NCBI RefSeq assembly: GCF_000973085.1
Contig: NZ_CP011280.1
Location: 212,642-276,641, forward strand
From: Sneathia vaginalis
Lineage (GTDB): Bacteria > Fusobacteriota > Fusobacteriia > Fusobacteriales > Leptotrichiaceae
Length of the DNA stretch: 64,000 nt
Reading direction: 5' to 3'
Part shown: positions 5 through 62,513 of the stretch, piece by piece
Layout of the letters: every line of letters starts with the position of its first letter
How positions within the stretch are numbered: the stretch's first letter is position 1
The notes under the pieces: model-generated
Databases searched by the model: none
What the model was told of the DNA's origin: nothing
The model's input: the letters and a program-made list of their open reading frames with translations, nothing else
Translations under genes and position numbers: made by a program

Positions 5-110
5 CTTGGTGGTAAGCTACAGAGGTACACCTAGAAACATACCGAACCTAGAAGTTAAGCCTGTAAACGCCTACAATACTCAGTAATGGGGAAGATTGGT
101 AACTGCCAAG
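5..110 (+). rRNA. rrf: 5S ribosomal RNA, copy 1
   Basis: The sequence holds the conserved 5S core (ACCGAACCTAGAAGTTAAGC at about 41-60) and complementary ends: CTTGGTGGT at the 5' end pairs with ACTGCCAAG at 102-110, forming helix I. At about 106 nt it is a little shorter than the usual 115-120 nt. A 23S rRNA gene would be expected just upstream, outside the window. A second copy follows within 10 bp, and no terminator lies between them, so both are probably cut from one transcript. Confidence 0.93.
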
Positions 111-118
111 TTTTATTA

Positions 119-226
119 ATTTGGTGACTTAGCTACAGAGATACACCTAGTTACATACCGAACCTAGAAGTTAAGCCTGTAAACGTCGAAAATACTAGTA
201 ATTTGGGAAGATAGATAGTTGCCAAA
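119..226 (+). rRNA. rrf: 5S ribosomal RNA, copy 2 (diverged tandem copy)
   Basis: This second 5S gene has the same core (ACATACCGAACCTAGAAGTT) and complementary ends (ATTTGGTGACT with AGTTGCCAAAT). It differs from copy 1 at many places, chiefly in the helix IV/V region (AATACTAGTAATTTGGGAAG against AATACTCAGTAATGGGGAAG) and in both helix I strands, where changes are compensated. Preserved pairing argues for a functional RNA rather than a decaying copy. A T-run follows directly and probably ends the rRNA operon. Confidence 0.85.
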
Positions 227-236
227 TTTTTTTTTT
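225..236 (+). terminator. U-tract ending the rRNA transcript
   Basis: About a dozen T residues follow directly on helix I of the second 5S gene. The 5S terminal stem plus this T-run can act as an intrinsic terminator. The ribosome binding site of the next gene starts at 241. Confidence 0.55.
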
Positions 237-1926: not shown

Positions 1927-3393
1927 ATGAATATTGAAAAGCTATACCCTGAAAGAGTATTTCACTATTTCTTAGAAATTTCAAAAATACCAAGAGGATC
2001 AGGAAATGAAAAACAAGTTAGTGACTATTTAGTAGATTTTGCTAAAAAACACAATCTATTTGTTTATCAAGATGAAAACAACAATGTATTAATCAGAAAA
2101 CCTGCTACAAAGGGTTATGAAAAGTACAAGTCTATTTGTATACAAGGTCATATGGACATGGTTTGTGAAAAGAATAAGGATGTAGACTTTGACTTTGAAA
2201 AACAAGGTATAAATGTCATGGTTAAAGACGGATTTTTAACTGCTGATGGTACAACACTAGGAGCAGATAATGGAATTTCTATGGGTATGACATTGGCAAT
2301 ACTTGAATCTAATGAAATTAAACACCCAAAATTAGAAATATTAATTACAACTGATGAAGAAGTAAGCATGAAGGGTGCAGAAAACTTTGATGTTACAAAA
2401 TTAGAATCAGAAATTTTGGTGAATATAGACAGCGAAGAATATGGTTCAATTTATGTAAGCAGTGCTGGATGTTCAAGAGTTAGAACTTTCCTAGAATTAG
2501 AAAATGAAGAAATATCATTAAAAGATAATATATATGAAATAGAAGTAAAAGGTTTAAATGGTGGACATAGTGGTGCTGATATACATGAAAATAGGGCAAA
2601 TGCTATTAAGATATTAAATGAGTTAATAAGAAGGGTATCTGTAATGGCAGATGTTAGATACATTAGCATAGACTGTGGAAGCAAAAACAATACTATACCA
2701 AGAGAAGGTGTGGCATATATAGTAGCAGATACAAGCATAGAAAAAGTTAGAGAATATGTTAGCCTTGCAATGGACTCATTAAATTATCAATATGTAAAGA
2801 CAGATAATAATATGTGTGCCATAGTAGAAAAGAAGGAATATAGTGGGCAAAAGCAATTAACAGAAAAGGCTACTAGAAAGTTATTAAGATATATTGAAGG
2901 ATATTTAACAGGAGTTATACGTTTCTCAAAAGAAATAGAAGGATTAGTTCAAACATCACTTAATTTAGGTATAGTTGACACTAAAGAAGATGGAAGCAAG
3001 AAGATTGTTACAATTAATTCATTAGTTAGAAGTGGTGTAACATATGAACAACAAGAACTATGTAAATATTTAGTAAACTATGGTGAAAAATATGACAGTA
3101 AGTCTGTAATCGACGATAGTTGTAATCCATGGGAATACAAGAAAGATTCAAAGATCAGAGACTATTTTGCAAGAATTTTTGAAGAACAAACAGGTAAGAA
3201 ACCTAAAATTGCTGCAATACATGCGGGACTTGAATGTGGAATATTCTCAGAAAAGAACCCTAAATTAGATGTAATTTCTATAGGACCAGATATTAAAAAT
3301 CCACATACACCAGATGAAAGAATGAGCATAGATGCAGTTAAACAAACATATGAATACTTATTAAAAGCTTTAGAGGAATATACAATTGATTAA
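1927..3393 (+). CDS. pepD: Aminoacyl-histidine dipeptidase (M20/M28-type metallopeptidase)
   Basis: This 488-residue zinc peptidase of the PepD family cleaves dipeptides, including Xaa-His, in the cytoplasm. Metal-binding motifs visible are IQGHMDMVCEK near residue 75, TTLGADNGIS near 112, TTDEEVSMKGA near 142 and the NGGHSGADI signature of the dimerisation domain near 212. The C-terminal HAGLECGIF and GPDIKNPHTPDER supply the last ligands. No signal peptide is present. AGGAGGAGAG precedes the ATG. The gene overlaps the next one by 8 bp, which suggests translational coupling. It is one of several peptidases in this window. Confidence 0.95.
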   Translation: MNIEKLYPERVFHYFLEISKIPRGSGNEKQVSDYLVDFAKKHNLFVYQDENNNVLIRKPATKGYEKYKSICIQGHMDMVCEKNKDVDFDFEKQGINVMVKDGFLTADGTTLGADNGISMGMTLAILESNEIKHPKLEILITTDEEVSMKGAENFDVTKLESEILVNIDSEEYGSIYVSSAGCSRVRTFLELENEEISLKDNIYEIEVKGLNGGHSGADIHENRANAIKILNELIRRVSVMADVRYISIDCGSKNNTIPREGVAYIVADTSIEKVREYVSLAMDSLNYQYVKTDNNMCAIVEKKEYSGQKQLTEKATRKLLRYIEGYLTGVIRFSKEIEGLVQTSLNLGIVDTKEDGSKKIVTINSLVRSGVTYEQQELCKYLVNYGEKYDSKSVIDDSCNPWEYKKDSKIRDYFARIFEEQTGKKPKIAAIHAGLECGIFSEKNPKLDVISIGPDIKNPHTPDERMSIDAVKQTYEYLLKALEEYTID

Positions 3394-4453
3394 TATAGAT
3401 GGAATAGTTGTAGTAGAAGGTAAAGATGATAAAACAGCTGTAAGTCGGGTTATACAACCAGATAATATATATATATTAAATGGTATGAGTGGTGCAAATC
3501 AAAAGAAAATAGATGATTTGAAAAGACTAGCGAAGAATAACAAGATATATATATTAACAGATCCAGACTTTGCAGGTAAAAAGATAAGAGAAAAGATTAA
3601 AGAAAATATACCTACTGCAATTGATATATATGCAAGTAAGTATCTTGCAACAAAAAAAGGTAATGTTGGAATAGAGAATATGTCAGAAGATGATATATTA
3701 GACCTATTTCAAAATATACATGAAAAGAAGAATAATAAGGAATATATTTTTAGCTTAAATGATATACTAGATAATGGTTTGAATAATAGGGTGAAAAGAG
3801 AGCTATTAGGGGACTTGTTGTCTATAGGGTATTGTAACAACAAGAAATTGGTTAAGTTACTTAATATATTGAATATTTCAAAAAAAGATTTTGATGATGC
3901 AGTAAAAAAGACTAATGAAATGTATATTTTCAAGACAAAAAATGCAGCAATATTCGGTAAATTTTTCCCAGTACACAAAGGCCATGTTTGGTTCATTAAA
4001 CAAGTCGCAAGATATTGTAGGGAGCTATATGTCTTTGTGTGCGAAGAAACATTAAGGGATAAGGCATTAAATGAAAAGTCAAAATTACCTAATTTAAGCA
4101 TAAATGATAGAAGAAGATTTTTAGAACAAGAATTAAAGGGTTACAAAAACATACATATATTGAAGTTAAATGAAGATGGAATAGAACCATATCCCAACGG
4201 ATGGGAAAATTGGACTAAAAGGGTGTATGAAAAAATTAAAGAATGTAATATATCATTAGACTGTGTATTTACAAACGAAACACAAGATAAAGAAAATTAT
4301 GACAAATATTTTGATATACCAGCATACTTAATTGATCCTAAAAGAGAGGGCTATTCAATATCATCTACGATGATAAGAAATGATCCAACAAAATATATTG
4401 AATATATGCCCAATAGTGTGAAAAAGTGGTATACAAAGAATAAAGGGAGATAA
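3386..4453 (+). CDS. Fusion protein: ribonuclease M5 (TOPRIM) + NadR-type NMN adenylyltransferase
   Basis: The 355-residue protein joins two enzymes. Residues 1 to about 180 are RNase M5, which matures 5S rRNA in Bacillus: VVVEGKDD (E11 to D15) and LTDPDFAGKKIR (D59, D61) are the TOPRIM acidic motifs, followed by the M5 C-terminal region. Residues about 186-355 match the adenylyltransferase domain of NadR: GKFFPVHKGH (197-200 is the HxGH motif), the EPYPNGWENW stretch and ISSTMIR (325-331). The NadR kinase domain is absent. The reading frame is continuous. The start is TTG 3386 with AGAGGA upstream. The adjacent 5S genes are the expected M5 substrate. Each half is a confident call; the biological reason for joining them is unknown. 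Confidence 0.85.
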   Translation: MINIDGIVVVEGKDDKTAVSRVIQPDNIYILNGMSGANQKKIDDLKRLAKNNKIYILTDPDFAGKKIREKIKENIPTAIDIYASKYLATKKGNVGIENMSEDDILDLFQNIHEKKNNKEYIFSLNDILDNGLNNRVKRELLGDLLSIGYCNNKKLVKLLNILNISKKDFDDAVKKTNEMYIFKTKNAAIFGKFFPVHKGHVWFIKQVARYCRELYVFVCEETLRDKALNEKSKLPNLSINDRRRFLEQELKGYKNIHILKLNEDGIEPYPNGWENWTKRVYEKIKECNISLDCVFTNETQDKENYDKYFDIPAYLIDPKREGYSISSTMIRNDPTKYIEYMPNSVKKWYTKNKGR

Positions 4454-4454
4454 A

Positions 4455-6245
4455 ATGAAAAAATTACTTTTAGCTACATTAGCACTAACTAGTGTAATCA
4501 CATTTTCAGAAACTATTCACCAAATACAAGGTGTAACACATACATCACCATATAATCAAAAAATGGTTAAAAATGTAAGGGGTATAGTTACAGCTGTTGT
4601 AAAAGATGGATTCTATATGCAAAGCAGAAAATTTGATAGAAATATTAAGACATCAGAAGGAATTTATGTAGAAAGCAAGAATTTACCTAATGTTGGAGAA
4701 TATGTAAGTGTAAATGGTATGGTTTATGAAAAACAATTTGGTAGACCTAGTGAATCAGAATTAACAGTTACGAGTATAAAGGCGGGGGATGATATTAAGG
4801 TAATATCAAAAGGTAATAAGGTTAAGGCTGTTAGTATAGATCCAAGAAAAGTTCCTATGAAAGTATATGTAGGTAAATTTCATGAAAAGTTAAATCCTAA
4901 AAAGAATGCAATGGATTTTTATGAATCATTGGAAGGAATGTTAGTAAAAGTACATAAGCCATTAATTACAGGAGCAGATGAAGATAGAGGAGAAGTTTGT
5001 GTAGTTCCTGAATATGGAAAGTATGTTAAAGATAAGACAAATCATGGTGGTGTTAGATACACTTACAAAAACGAACAAACACAAAGAATTCTAATTAAGA
5101 GTGAATTATTCAAATTATCACAAGGTAAAAGATATGAAGGTAAATACATTGATCCTTCATTTACACCAAATCCTGGAGACAGATTTTCTAGAGATATACA
5201 AGGTGTACTTACATACGATAAGTCAAATTACAAATTAATAAATACTAGTCCTTTACCTAAGATAAAAGATGGAAAGATAAAAAGGGATAAATTAAATATT
5301 AAGTATGATAAGAATAAATTAAGTATTGTTTCATACAATATTGAAAACTTCACAATAGCAGACGGTGGACAAAAAAGAGTAGATGTACTTGCAAAACAAG
5401 TTCGTGACGATTTACATACGCCAGATATATTAGGACTTGCAGAAGTAGGTGACAATGATGGTGGTAATGTAACATCAAAAGTTGTAAGTGCTGATAAGGT
5501 ATTAGACGCAATAGTAGAAGGAATAAAGAAAGCTACAGGCGTAGAATACAAATGGTTAAGTGCTGATCCAGAAGATGGAAAAGATGGAGGTTGGCCTGCT
5601 ATGCATATTAGAAATGCCATCCTATACCGTACTGATAAATTAGAATTACCATACTTTAAACAAGGTGACTCTAAAGTTGATACGGAAATAAAGGAAGGGA
5701 AGCTAACATTTAATCCTGGAAGATTAGGTAACAACAAAGAATTCTATAAAGATGTTAGAAAATCATTAGTAGCACATCTAGTTTTAAAAGATAGTAAGAA
5801 GGATGTATTTATTGTAGTAAATCATTTGAAATCAAAGAGATTTGATGACAAGATTTATTCTAAAAATCAACCAGTTAAGAGAAAATCTGAAGACTTAAGA
5901 ATACCTGAAGGTAAATATGTTGGACAATTCTTGAAAGAAATTAATAAGCAAAAACCTAATGCAATAATATTATCAATGGGAGATATGAATGACTTTGAAT
6001 TTTCACCAACACTAAAGGCTATGAAAACAAACTTAATGGTAAGTGCTGTTGAAAGTTTACCTAAAAACCAAAGACACACATATGTTTATCAAGGAAATTC
6101 ACAAGTATTAGATAATCTATTAGTTAACAAAAAATATGCAAAAGGGATGAAAGTTGATATTTTAAATATTAATTCAGAGTTCACAATATCACAAGGATAC
6201 TTTAGTGATCATGATCCTGTATATATGCAAATTAATGTAAAATAG
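4455..6245 (+). CDS. Secreted endonuclease/exonuclease/phosphatase-family nuclease
   Basis: This 596-residue protein has an N-terminal signal peptide (KKLLLATLALTSVITFSE). Residues about 25-270 resemble the OB-fold region found in ExeM/NucH-type extracellular nucleases. The C-terminal EEP nuclease domain contains SIVSYNIENF near 293, LAEVGDNDG near 327, VVNHLKSKRFDD near 455, LSMGDMNDFEFSPT near 508 and FSDHDPVY near the end. These carry the metal-binding Glu, catalytic Asp and His residues. It probably degrades extracellular DNA for nucleotide scavenging or biofilm or NET escape, which is inference. GGGAG precedes ATG 4455, two bases after the previous stop. Confidence 0.88.
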   Translation: MKKLLLATLALTSVITFSETIHQIQGVTHTSPYNQKMVKNVRGIVTAVVKDGFYMQSRKFDRNIKTSEGIYVESKNLPNVGEYVSVNGMVYEKQFGRPSESELTVTSIKAGDDIKVISKGNKVKAVSIDPRKVPMKVYVGKFHEKLNPKKNAMDFYESLEGMLVKVHKPLITGADEDRGEVCVVPEYGKYVKDKTNHGGVRYTYKNEQTQRILIKSELFKLSQGKRYEGKYIDPSFTPNPGDRFSRDIQGVLTYDKSNYKLINTSPLPKIKDGKIKRDKLNIKYDKNKLSIVSYNIENFTIADGGQKRVDVLAKQVRDDLHTPDILGLAEVGDNDGGNVTSKVVSADKVLDAIVEGIKKATGVEYKWLSADPEDGKDGGWPAMHIRNAILYRTDKLELPYFKQGDSKVDTEIKEGKLTFNPGRLGNNKEFYKDVRKSLVAHLVLKDSKKDVFIVVNHLKSKRFDDKIYSKNQPVKRKSEDLRIPEGKYVGQFLKEINKQKPNAIILSMGDMNDFEFSPTLKAMKTNLMVSAVESLPKNQRHTYVYQGNSQVLDNLLVNKKYAKGMKVDILNINSEFTISQGYFSDHDPVYMQINVK

Positions 6246-9481: not shown

Positions 9482-9517
9482 TAAAATGATTGTACAAAGG
9501 AAGGTGATATTTTAGTG

Positions 9518-10612
9518 ATGAAAAGAGTGGCAATAGTTTTAGCTAAAAGAACAGCAATAGGAGGTTACAAAAAAAGCTTTTTAGATAAAAATATTGTTGA
9601 TGTTGCAACGAAATTAGTAACAAAAAGTATAGATAAAAAAATATTAAATAAAGTGGATGAAGTAATAATGGGTATGGTAATGCAATCAGGATATGGTCAA
9701 AATGTTGCAAGGCAGATATCAATTAATTCAGGTATACCAATACAAGCTAGTTCATATACTGTAAATATGGTGTGTGGATCTGGTATGAAAGCTGTAGAAT
9801 TAGGTGCTAATTCAATACTTTTAGGTAAGAGTAAAATAGTTTTAGTTGGTGGACTAGAGAATATGAGTAATGTTGATTATTCTTTGTTACTTCGTGATGG
9901 ACTAACTGATGTATTCAATGATTATCATATGGGGAAAACAGCAGAAAATGTAGCTAAAAAATACAATATCACAAGAAAAGACTGTGATGAATTTTCATTA
10001 AATAGTACAAAAAAAGCTATAGAAAATATAGATAAACTAAAAGAAGAAATAGTAGAATTAGAATATATTAATAGTGACGAACATATACGTCTAGATCAAA
10101 GCATAGAAAAATTATCTAGACTAAAGCCAGCATTTTTGGAGAATGGAGTAGTTACAGCAGGTAATGCAACAGGTCTAAATGATGGTGTTGCAATACTTCT
10201 TTTAATGGAAGAAAAAACTGCAAAAGAGTTTAACTTAGAAATTTTAGGATATATTAAAAATATTAAAAGTGTAGGACTAGACCCAGCATATATGGGACTT
10301 GGTCCAGTAGAAGCTATAAAGAAGACACTAGAAGAAGAAAAATTATCTAGTTCTAGTATAGACTTATTCGAAATAAATGAGGCGTTTGCTAGTCAGGTAA
10401 TAGCATGTATAAGAGAATTAAAGATAGATGAGAAAAAGGTGAACGTAAATGGAGGTGCACTTGCTCTTGGACATCCTATAGGTGCAAGTGGTGCTAGAAT
10501 AATAGTAACATTAATAAATGAAATGAAGAGAAGAAATTCTAAAAGAGGAATAGCCAGTCTTTGTGTTGGTGGAGGACAAGGGTTATGTACATTAATTGAA
10601 AGGGATAATTAG
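9518..10612 (+). CDS. Acetyl-CoA acetyltransferase (thiolase), first step of mevalonate pathway
   Basis: This thiolase condenses two acetyl-CoA to acetoacetyl-CoA. The acylated cysteine is Cys86 in NMVCGSGMKAV. The C-terminal motifs GGALALGHPIGASGAR and CVGGGQG carry the catalytic His and the second Cys. At 364 residues it is shorter than the usual ~392. ATG 9518 fits the ribosome binding site; GTG 9515 is also possible. It heads the mevalonate operon and supplies the substrate of the next enzyme, HMG-CoA synthase. Confidence 0.93.
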   Translation: MKRVAIVLAKRTAIGGYKKSFLDKNIVDVATKLVTKSIDKKILNKVDEVIMGMVMQSGYGQNVARQISINSGIPIQASSYTVNMVCGSGMKAVELGANSILLGKSKIVLVGGLENMSNVDYSLLLRDGLTDVFNDYHMGKTAENVAKKYNITRKDCDEFSLNSTKKAIENIDKLKEEIVELEYINSDEHIRLDQSIEKLSRLKPAFLENGVVTAGNATGLNDGVAILLLMEEKTAKEFNLEILGYIKNIKSVGLDPAYMGLGPVEAIKKTLEEEKLSSSSIDLFEINEAFASQVIACIRELKIDEKKVNVNGGALALGHPIGASGARIIVTLINEMKRRNSKRGIASLCVGGGQGLCTLIERDN

Positions 10613-10613
10613 A

Positions 10614-11744
10614 ATGAAAATTGGTATTGATAAGATGGGTATATATATACCTAGATATTATTTGGATATAAGGGACTTGGCTAAAGAACGTAATATAGAT
10701 CCAGATAAGTTTGTAATAGGTCTTGGTCAAAGCAAGATGTCTGTTAATCCCATTAGTCAGGATATAGTGACATTTGGAGTTTTAGCAGCAGATAAGATAT
10801 TAACAGATGAAGATAAGAAAAAAATAGATATGTTAATAGTTGGAACGGAAACAGGAGTAGACCAATCAAAATCTGCTAGTGCATTTATGCATTCTATACT
10901 TGGTATAAACGAATATTGTAGAAGTATAGAAATAAAGCAAGCATGTTATGGTGCAACAGCTGCCCTACAAGTAGCAAAAAATCATATACTAGTAAATCCA
11001 GATAGTAAAGTTTTGGTAATAGCAAGTGATATTGCAAAATATGGAATAAATACTAGTGGTGAATCAACACAAGGATGTGGAGCTGTAGCTATGCTTGTAT
11101 CGAGAGATCCAAAGATGCTAGAAATATCTAATGAGTCTGTATGCTATACAAAAGATGTTATGGACTTTTTTAGACCAAATAATTCTACTTATGCCATAGC
11201 TAATGGTAAATTATCTACTAATACTTACCTTGAATCTTTAGAAAAAGTATATTATGAATTTTCTAATAGATTTGGTGAAAAGGATTTTAGTGCAATTTGT
11301 TTCCATATACCATATCCTAAATTAGGATTAAAGGGATTAAAAGAGATAAAAAGAGAAGACTTGTTGGAAGAATTTAATAATTCAATAATGTATAACAAAG
11401 AAATAGGGAATATTTATACAGGTTCACTATTCTTAAGTCTAATTTCATTATTAGAAAACAGTAAAAAAATTAAAGCTAACGACTTAATAGGTCTATATAG
11501 CTACGGTTCAGGAGCAGTCAGTGAATTTTTCACTATGAAGGTAGTTGAAGGATACGAAAAACACTTAAGTATAAAAGAAAATCAAAAGATGTTGGAAAAT
11601 AGGGTTAAACTTAGTGTTAGTGAATATGAAGAAATGTTTTTTTCTAAAATAGAGCATGAAAAAGAAATAGAAAATAAAGAAGGAGAAGATGTATACCTAA
11701 AGGGTATATTTAACAATGAAAGAACATATGCTAGAAAAATTTAA
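10614..11744 (+). CDS. mvaS: Hydroxymethylglutaryl-CoA synthase
   Basis: This 376-residue enzyme of the bacterial MvaS family joins acetyl-CoA and acetoacetyl-CoA to HMG-CoA. The catalytic cysteine is Cys111 in KQACYGATAALQ, the same position as in the staphylococcal enzyme. The conserved Glu near 79 is in VGTETGVDQSKS, and the catalytic His is in AICFHIPYPKLG near 226. YSYGSGAVSEFF is near 300. ATG 10614 is used because AAAGGG (10599-10604) precedes it and the alignment starts at MKIGIDKMG. It overlaps mvaA by 29 bp. Confidence 0.95.
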   Translation: MKIGIDKMGIYIPRYYLDIRDLAKERNIDPDKFVIGLGQSKMSVNPISQDIVTFGVLAADKILTDEDKKKIDMLIVGTETGVDQSKSASAFMHSILGINEYCRSIEIKQACYGATAALQVAKNHILVNPDSKVLVIASDIAKYGINTSGESTQGCGAVAMLVSRDPKMLEISNESVCYTKDVMDFFRPNNSTYAIANGKLSTNTYLESLEKVYYEFSNRFGEKDFSAICFHIPYPKLGLKGLKEIKREDLLEEFNNSIMYNKEIGNIYTGSLFLSLISLLENSKKIKANDLIGLYSYGSGAVSEFFTMKVVEGYEKHLSIKENQKMLENRVKLSVSEYEEMFFSKIEHEKEIENKEGEDVYLKGIFNNERTYARKI

Positions 11745-12951
11745 AAAATACTATAACAAATCAAGAGAAGAAAGAATAGATATTTTAAAAGACTTAGGTT
11801 TATGTGAAGAGTCATATAAAGATCTTTTGAATACTAAAGTTATGGATAATAGTCTTGCAACAAGGCTAGTAGAAAATCAAATAAGTATACTAGGGCTACC
11901 ATTGGGACTTGCAACAAACTTTGTAATTAACGGTAAAGAGTATGTAATACCTATGGCTATAGAAGAGCCATCAGTAATAGCAGCAGCTAGTAATGCAGCA
12001 AAAATACTTGGTAATATTACTTGTACATCATATGGCAGACAAACAATAGGACAAATTGCTCTATATGACGTAAAAAAAGATGAAAGTATAATATATGAGA
12101 ATAAAGATAAAATACTTGCGATTGCAAATAGTACTAATTTAAAATTAGTAGAACTTGGTGCAGGAGCAAAAGATTTAAAGGTAGAAAAAAAAGGTGAGTT
12201 TACTATACTCTACCTTTATGTAGATACATTAGATGCAATGGGAGCAAATACTGTAGATACCATGCTAGAAGCAATAGCACCAATAGTAGAAGCAATGTTA
12301 GAAGCTAAAAAATTAATGAGTATATTATCAAACTATGCAACAAGTGCGTTAATTAGTGCAAGAGTGAAGTTAGAAGTAGAAAAAGAATTTGGTGATAGAA
12401 TTAGTCTTGCTTGTAAGCTAGCAAATGTTGATGTGTACAGGGCTGTAACGAATAATAAGGGGATATTTAATGGAATAGATGCACTAGCTCTTGCAACTGG
12501 TAATGATACAAGAGCTATAGAAGCAGCAGGACATGCATATGCAACAAGAACAGGTAAGTATAGATCATTAACAAATTGGCATATGGAAGATAATATTTTA
12601 GTAGGTGAATTGACTATGCCAATGTCTATTGCAACATTTGGTGGGTCTATAGGGCTAAATCCAGCATCTAAGATTTCACTTGAAATACTTAATAATCCTA
12701 ATGCGATAGAGTTAGCAAAAATAGCAGTAGCATTGGGACTAGCACAAAACTTTGCAGCATTAAGAGCTTTAGTTACAGAAGGTATACAAAAAGGACATAT
12801 GAAGTTACAGGCAAATTCAGTTGCCATATTTGCTGGTGCAAATGATAGTGAAGTAGATATGGTAGTTGATCGTATGTTGAAAGCAAAAGAAATAAATATA
12901 CAAAAAGCAAAAGAAATATTAGGAGATATTAGAAATGCAAGCAATAGCTAA
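11716..12951 (+). CDS. mvaA: Hydroxymethylglutaryl-CoA reductase, class II
   Basis: This 411-residue enzyme reduces HMG-CoA to mevalonate. Class II (bacterial) features are the N-terminal EEPSVIAAASNAAK motif with the catalytic Glu near residue 77, then DTLDAMGANTVDTMLE, and NDTRAIEAAGHAYA near 260. The catalytic His is in EGIQKGHMKLQ near the C-terminus. The start at 11716 has AAAGGG 11 bp upstream; an alternative ATG at 11728 has none. It overlaps mvaS and mvk, so translation is probably coupled. The cofactor preference cannot be told from sequence alone. Confidence 0.94.
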   Translation: MKEHMLEKFKKYYNKSREERIDILKDLGLCEESYKDLLNTKVMDNSLATRLVENQISILGLPLGLATNFVINGKEYVIPMAIEEPSVIAAASNAAKILGNITCTSYGRQTIGQIALYDVKKDESIIYENKDKILAIANSTNLKLVELGAGAKDLKVEKKGEFTILYLYVDTLDAMGANTVDTMLEAIAPIVEAMLEAKKLMSILSNYATSALISARVKLEVEKEFGDRISLACKLANVDVYRAVTNNKGIFNGIDALALATGNDTRAIEAAGHAYATRTGKYRSLTNWHMEDNILVGELTMPMSIATFGGSIGLNPASKISLEILNNPNAIELAKIAVALGLAQNFAALRALVTEGIQKGHMKLQANSVAIFAGANDSEVDMVVDRMLKAKEINIQKAKEILGDIRNASNS

Positions 12952-62304: not shown

Positions 62305-62312
62305 TAATGTAA

Positions 62313-62450
62313 TTAGATAGAGGCGCACTTTTTATAAGTATACTGTGGAGATGGCAATCAATGAAGTAGTAAAAAGGAAACGGTGCCGAAACACTAGTAA
62401 GGCATTACTAGGAGTTGGGTATATAGAGAATATCTATGTAACTGTCATAA
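62313..62450 (+). promoter_or_regulatory. Lysine riboswitch (L-box) aptamer
   Basis: The conserved L-box core is present in order: AGATAGAGGCGCAC, AAGTATACTGTGGAGATGGC, AAAAGGAAACGGTGCCGAAA, AGTTGGGTAT and ACTGTCAT. GGCGC and GGTGCC can pair as in the family, and the hairpin GTTGGGT-stem follows. It controls the transporter gene 80 bp downstream, which identifies lysine as the likely substrate. The dapH gene in this window belongs to the same pathway but has no such leader. Confidence 0.9.
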
Positions 62451-62461
62451 TATTATGATGT

Positions 62462-62513
62462 GCTATCAGTATATATAAAATATACCACTGATAGCTAATC
62501 TATCAGTTTTTTT
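62462..62513 (+). terminator. Riboswitch-controlled terminator/antiterminator
   Basis: ACTGATAG (62487-62494) pairs with CTATCAGT (62500-62507) and is followed by T residues: the terminator. GCTATCAGT (62462-62470) can instead pair with ACTGATAGC (62487-62495), blocking it: the antiterminator. The shared strand makes the two folds mutually exclusive, as expected for lysine-dependent attenuation. Confidence 0.85.

Follow-up and report, generated by a model that had tools for sequence, protein, structure and literature searches.

The window, a stretch of 64,000 nucleotides from Sneathia vaginalis (contig NZ_CP011280.1), contains near its beginning a gene that encodes two enzymes in one chain. 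This gene (3386..4453, + strand) is a single continuous open reading frame of 355 codons, and the chance that a frame of this length would stay open at the base composition of the window is about 3e-15. The genes that surround it, together with the domains and motifs of its product, are listed in Table 1.

Table 1. Features of the fusion gene and its surroundings (positions in the window)
Feature	Positions	Strand	Remarks
5S rRNA copy 1, possible substrate	5..111	+	
5S rRNA copy 2, tandem	120..227	+	
pepD-like M20 dipeptidase	1927..3393	+	last 8 nt overlap the start of the fusion gene; ancestral neighbour of rnmV
M5::NMNAT fusion gene	3386..4453	+	355 aa, TTG start, TAA stop; same fusion in nine genomes
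RNase M5 part, residues 4-173 (Toprim + DUF4093)	3395..3904	+	profile and structure matches
Toprim motif EGKDD, residues 11-15	3416..3430	+	E11, D14, D15 invariant in nine fusions
Toprim motif DPD, residues 59-61	3560..3568	+	invariant in nine fusions; aligned with TDPAF in 6tpq (M5 bound to 50S)
16-residue junction, residues 173-188	3902..3949	+	same length in nine genomes; predicted helix (AF2)
NadR-type NMN adenylyltransferase domain, residues 185-351	3938..4438	+	profiles; 8x7f rmsd 1.2, 1lw7 rmsd 1.4
Nucleotidyltransferase motif GKFFPVHKGH, residues 191-200	3956..3985	+	catalytic positions invariant in nine fusions
Motif ISSTMIR, residues 325-331	4358..4378	+	catalytic positions invariant in nine fusions
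ORF with weak EEP-fold match, below Pfam cut-off	4455..6245	+	1 nt 3' of the fusion gene

An earlier note on this DNA had claimed that one frame joins RNase M5 to a NadR-type NMN adenylyltransferase (NMNAT) from which the kinase domain is missing, and had pointed to the motifs EGKDD, DPD, HKGH and ISSTMIR. All of this was borne out: the joined frame by the open reading frame itself, by Pfam and NCBIfam matches and by its recurrence in nine genomes; the four motifs are all in place, and the protein does stop at the NMNAT boundary. In Pfam, the chain matches Toprim (residues 7-76), DUF4093 (93-173) and CTP_transf_like (190-332), each above the curated cut-off, and the NadR NMNAT models of NCBIfam (PRK08099, TIGR01526) match residues 183-351. 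The NadR models score far below their cut-offs, in line with the absent kinase domain, and the N-terminal HTH repressor domain of the E. coli type is also lacking, the N-terminus being that of RNase M5. The Toprim acids E11, D59 and D61 are present, and both sets of active-site motifs are intact. At the second aspartate of DPD, the construct in 6tpq appears to carry an alanine, judging from TDPAF there versus TDPDF in the fusions.

Against the NCBIfam model of RNase M5 (TIGR00334), the window protein aligns over the full length with 107.4 bits, about 3 bits short of the cut-off of 110.65, while the fused orthologues of a Caviibacter-like genome (L003; 112.7 bits) and of Streptobacillus (L006; 126.4 bits) exceed it. 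An unfused Leptotrichia M5 reaches 160 bits, more than the fused forms, which suggests that the M5 half of the fusion has drifted somewhat. The score just below the equivalog cut-off would fit a reading in which one half is no longer catalytic, with M5 serving as a passive tag or NMNAT as a passive domain. We regard this as very improbable, as all metal- and nucleotide-binding motifs are kept in the nine sequences, no replacement for the NMNAT was found, and every fused genome has a single M5 match. Moreover, NG86 dN/dS in congeneric pairs is as low as 0.09-0.16 in both halves, with synonymous sites near saturation in the Sneathia pair, and this pattern indicates purifying selection on both.

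The overlap of the TTG start with pepD is found in all five fused genomes outside Streptobacillus, in which the fusion gene starts with ATG. The frame on the 3' side is probably cotranscribed with the fusion gene; it is not a neighbour common to the other fused genera. Elsewhere in the window, mevalonate pathway genes for thiolase, HMG-CoA synthase and HMG-CoA reductase stand in a row (9515-12951), and a lysine riboswitch is located at 62310-62473.

When the same domain order was sought in other genomes, a check that the earlier note had proposed, the fusion was found in 9 of 98 Fusobacteriota genomes, one copy in each. The carriers belong to four genera of one family, which we infer to be Sneathia, Streptobacillus and two others, Caviibacter-like and Oceanivirga-like. 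Streptobacillus notomytis, one of the matches listed in a scan of genome contigs, is a fusion carrier; among the 80 matches listed in that scan, M5 occurred only in this species and in an unfused Leptotrichia, and rare fusions elsewhere may still exist. An earlier scan of genome contigs, with a single protein as the query, gave no match. Outside Leptotrichiaceae, the fusion was seen neither among the listed contig matches nor in phages and plasmids, of which no record reached 80% coverage. The possibility that an assembly or frameshift artefact joins two genes is practically negligible and was rejected, since the same junction is present in nine separate assemblies. A stop or frameshift at this site, named in the earlier note as grounds for doubt, occurs in none of the nine genomes. 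Separate genes in close relatives, the other ground named, do exist in the sister Leptotrichia-like genera, where the two-gene state is ancestral, but in no member of the fused clade.

Phylogenetic trees of the two domains point to a single origin of the fusion. The nine fusions form one clade in the M5 domain tree (support 100/99) and in the NMNAT domain tree (97/96), and in the latter they group with NadR1 of Leptotrichia-like genera, apart from NadR2. Derivation of the fused NMNAT from this second NadR paralogue was considered and is disfavoured by the NMNAT tree.

The two parental loci can be recognised in the unfused genera. In these, rnmV lies directly 3' of pepD and ends at its own natural stop, and nadR1 lies upstream of tRNA-Trp, secE, nusG and rplK (in G066, G082, G085 and G068), with rpmG preceding tRNA-Trp in some of them. 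The gene order in Streptobacillus is pepD, fusion gene, tRNA-Trp, secE, nusG and rplK; thus, the fusion gene retains there the neighbour of M5 on its left and those of nadR1 on its right, which shows how the fusion arose. In Sneathia and in the Oceanivirga-like and Caviibacter-like genomes, the tRNA-Trp-secE-nusG cluster is located elsewhere and has no nadR1 beside it. The simplest history, with a direction of events that we infer, would involve juxtaposition, stop loss, kinase loss and relocation. In an ancestor of the Sneathia, Caviibacter-, Oceanivirga- and Streptobacillus-like bacteria, pepD-rnmV would have been placed, once, directly upstream of nadR1-tRNA-Trp-secE-nusG, the stop codon separating rnmV from nadR1 would have been lost, the ribosylnicotinamide kinase half of NadR1 would have been deleted, and pepD with the fusion gene would later have moved in three genera.

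Several further observations concern nadR genes in unfused genomes. In three Leptotrichia-like genomes (G080, G069 and G075; loci L167, L168 and L169), nadR1 precedes a 16S gene of the same strand by approximately 300-500 nt; in G068, nadR has a 5S gene just upstream of it. Chance synteny or a shared growth-rate control may underlie this association between nadR1 and translation genes. G068 also encodes a NadR whose kinase half is decayed, with Walker A lost (L064, contig C33), as well as NadD; no M5 was found in this assembly, which is 88% complete.

A separate problem is the vicinity of 5S rRNA genes, which, according to the earlier note, lie about 3 kb away and hint at a link with the fusion. 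The two copies in the window are 8 nt apart and differ in sequence, the second being directly followed by a terminator-like T run. This proximity holds in the two Sneathia genomes, the only ones with 5S genes within 3-4 kb of the fusion gene, and there an rrn operon precedes the region as a whole; in Streptobacillus and in one Oceanivirga-like genome, the distance amounts to tens of kb or more. As it is conserved only within Sneathia, we rejected the proximity as evidence of a functional link. Tandem 5S genes are also present in further genomes (L174, L175, L176 and L177): in the second Sneathia-like genome (G092), in Caviibacter-like G065 and Oceanivirga-like G083, and, on either side of a tRNA-like spacer, in Streptobacillus G094. 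The predicted folds of pre-5S RNA are AU-rich and uninformative on M5 dependence.

The earlier note had overlooked that no NMNAT other than the fused one was found in these genomes. Family-profile searches, at the sensitivity of HMMs, revealed no NadD over the cut-off, no PnuC above background and, for the NAD synthetase NadE, only weak matches in other frames in the nine fused genomes. Nor was a NadR kinase (PF13521) found in the nine: it gave no match over the cut-off in the window's genome and one borderline match, in an unrelated frame of 198 aa, in the second Sneathia genome. On the other hand, a NAMPT-type NadV of about 475 residues is present in all nine (typed for four genera), and its closest structures are nicotinamide phosphoribosyltransferases (E about 4e-124). 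NCBIfam NF006629 (PRK09198) labels these proteins (L063 and its orthologues) as nicotinate phosphoribosyltransferase, at odds with their structural relatives. The other CTP_transf_like proteins of the window's genome are CoaD and RibF only. With NadD and NadE of the deamidating route, PnuC and the NadR kinase not found, NadV present, and only CoaD and RibF sharing the fold in the window's genome, the fusion is predicted to serve as the only NMNAT of a two-step route from nicotinamide through NMN to NAD. It is likewise predicted to be the sole RNase M5, and its NMNAT half should be essential.

The arrangement of the two domains was approached by structure prediction. A model from nine sequences (AF2) was of low confidence in the M5 loop, and one built from 25 sequences was used instead (mean pLDDT 88.5, pTM 0.65, a value that does not define how the two domains face each other). 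In Foldseek searches, the NMNAT half of this model matched 8x7f at 1.2 A and 1lw7 at 1.4 A, and the M5 half matched the Mg-bound M5 Toprim 6z2b (TM 0.89 on target). A continuous helix (residues 166-184) is predicted to connect the end of the M5 domain with the first strand of the NMNAT domain. The junction of 16 residues is free of indels in all nine proteins, and loops elsewhere differ in length.

Such a junction, together with the retention of the fusion in four genera and its position as the sole NMNAT found, would fit a coupling of the two activities, in which NMN, ATP or NAD on the NMNAT domain altered RNase M5, or binding of pre-5S or of the 50S subunit altered NAD synthesis, and ribosome maturation tracked coenzyme supply. 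The earlier note had suggested such a tuning of 5S processing by NMN or NAD. We consider this coupling unlikely: no allosteric site was seen, each half also works alone in relatives, and nine sequences are too few for coevolution analysis. Its most specific form, in which sensing of NMN, NAD or ATP by the NMNAT half gates RNase M5 (or 50S gates NAD synthesis) through a rigid junction helix and makes 5S maturation a coenzyme-supply checkpoint in host-dependent bacteria, is a little more doubtful still.

It may also be imagined, along the lines of the tethering raised in the earlier note, that M5 docks the only NMNAT on the assembling 50S subunit, where NAD would be made beside the translation machinery or the enzyme would be stabilised by the ribosome. 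M5 does bind 50S with pre-5S (PDB 6tpq), relatives have nadR1 close to translation genes, and for a vertebrate an NMNAT fusion has been described as lending localisation (PMC4664474). However, M5 should bind only transiently and in numbers below those of the ribosomes, and the gene neighbourhood accounts for the fusion without any tethering, which makes this possibility distinctly improbable.

The explanation that we favour, with a probability of about 0.78, is a bifunctional RNase M5 and NMNAT of single origin by the route described above, acting with NadV as the sole NMNAT, whose domains most likely work independently. The NMNAT half would convert NMN and ATP into NAD, which would be made only from nicotinamide, through NMN produced by the NAMPT-type NadV. 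Were the fused NMNAT the only route to NAD, rnmV would have become inseparable from an essential gene. RNase M5 itself is not known to be essential in B. subtilis. Gene order would have brought the domains together, and the fusion would have persisted since the loss of either half would take the other with it, 1:1 co-expression being the main consequence. On the other hand, the indel-free junction, modelled as a continuous helix, indicates that geometry could matter, contrary to independence of the domains. The M5 half would trim 5S precursors on the 50S subunit. Precise processing of 5S depends on RNase M5 in B. subtilis, as does its 5' processing in Listeria, and L18 is required (PMC12774634).

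In human and animal pathogens, Sneathia and the Streptobacillus of rat-bite fever, one gene locks an rRNA maturase to the sole predicted NMNAT, and both the maturation of ribosomes and an essential coenzyme pathway would depend on it. The fusion supplies the NMNAT step in a reduced NAD pathway that could be overlooked when genes are annotated one by one, as the protein may be named RNase M5 or NadR only, and it makes a coupling between NAD metabolism and ribosome maturation testable. It also offers an unusually clear record of the birth of a gene fusion, with both parental neighbourhoods visible in one genus.

Neither domain is new, and no paper naming both RNase M5 and NadR was found in the openly licensed literature searched, in which the combination, the role as sole NMNAT and the traceable birth are not described. 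The fusion resembles RNase M5 (RnmV, TIGR00334; 6tpq, 6z2b) in its full-length Toprim and DUF4093 domains, its conserved catalytic acids and the pepD-rnmV locus of the family, but differs in carrying a C-terminal NMNAT. With NadR (NMNAT and ribosylnicotinamide kinase, with or without HTH; 1lw7, 8x7f) it shares the NMNAT domain, which aligns from end to end (rmsd 1.2-1.4 A in the model); unlike NadR, it has neither kinase nor HTH, stands behind RNase M5, and has NadV rather than PnuC as its predicted partner. Another fusion of NMNAT to an unrelated protein is Nmnat1-Rbp7 of a zebrafish study, proposed to lend localisation (PMC4664474), although that one is eukaryotic and involves a different partner and another NMNAT family. 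The pathway is most like that of V-factor-independent Pasteurellaceae such as Haemophilus ducreyi, in which NMN is the product of a NAMPT-type NadV, a separate NMNAT has to complete NAD, and nadR is eroded (PMC4081464). In H. ducreyi, where nadR is a pseudogene, the NMNAT was called unidentified (PMC4081464), whereas in the fused genomes it is identified by sequence, as part of RNase M5.
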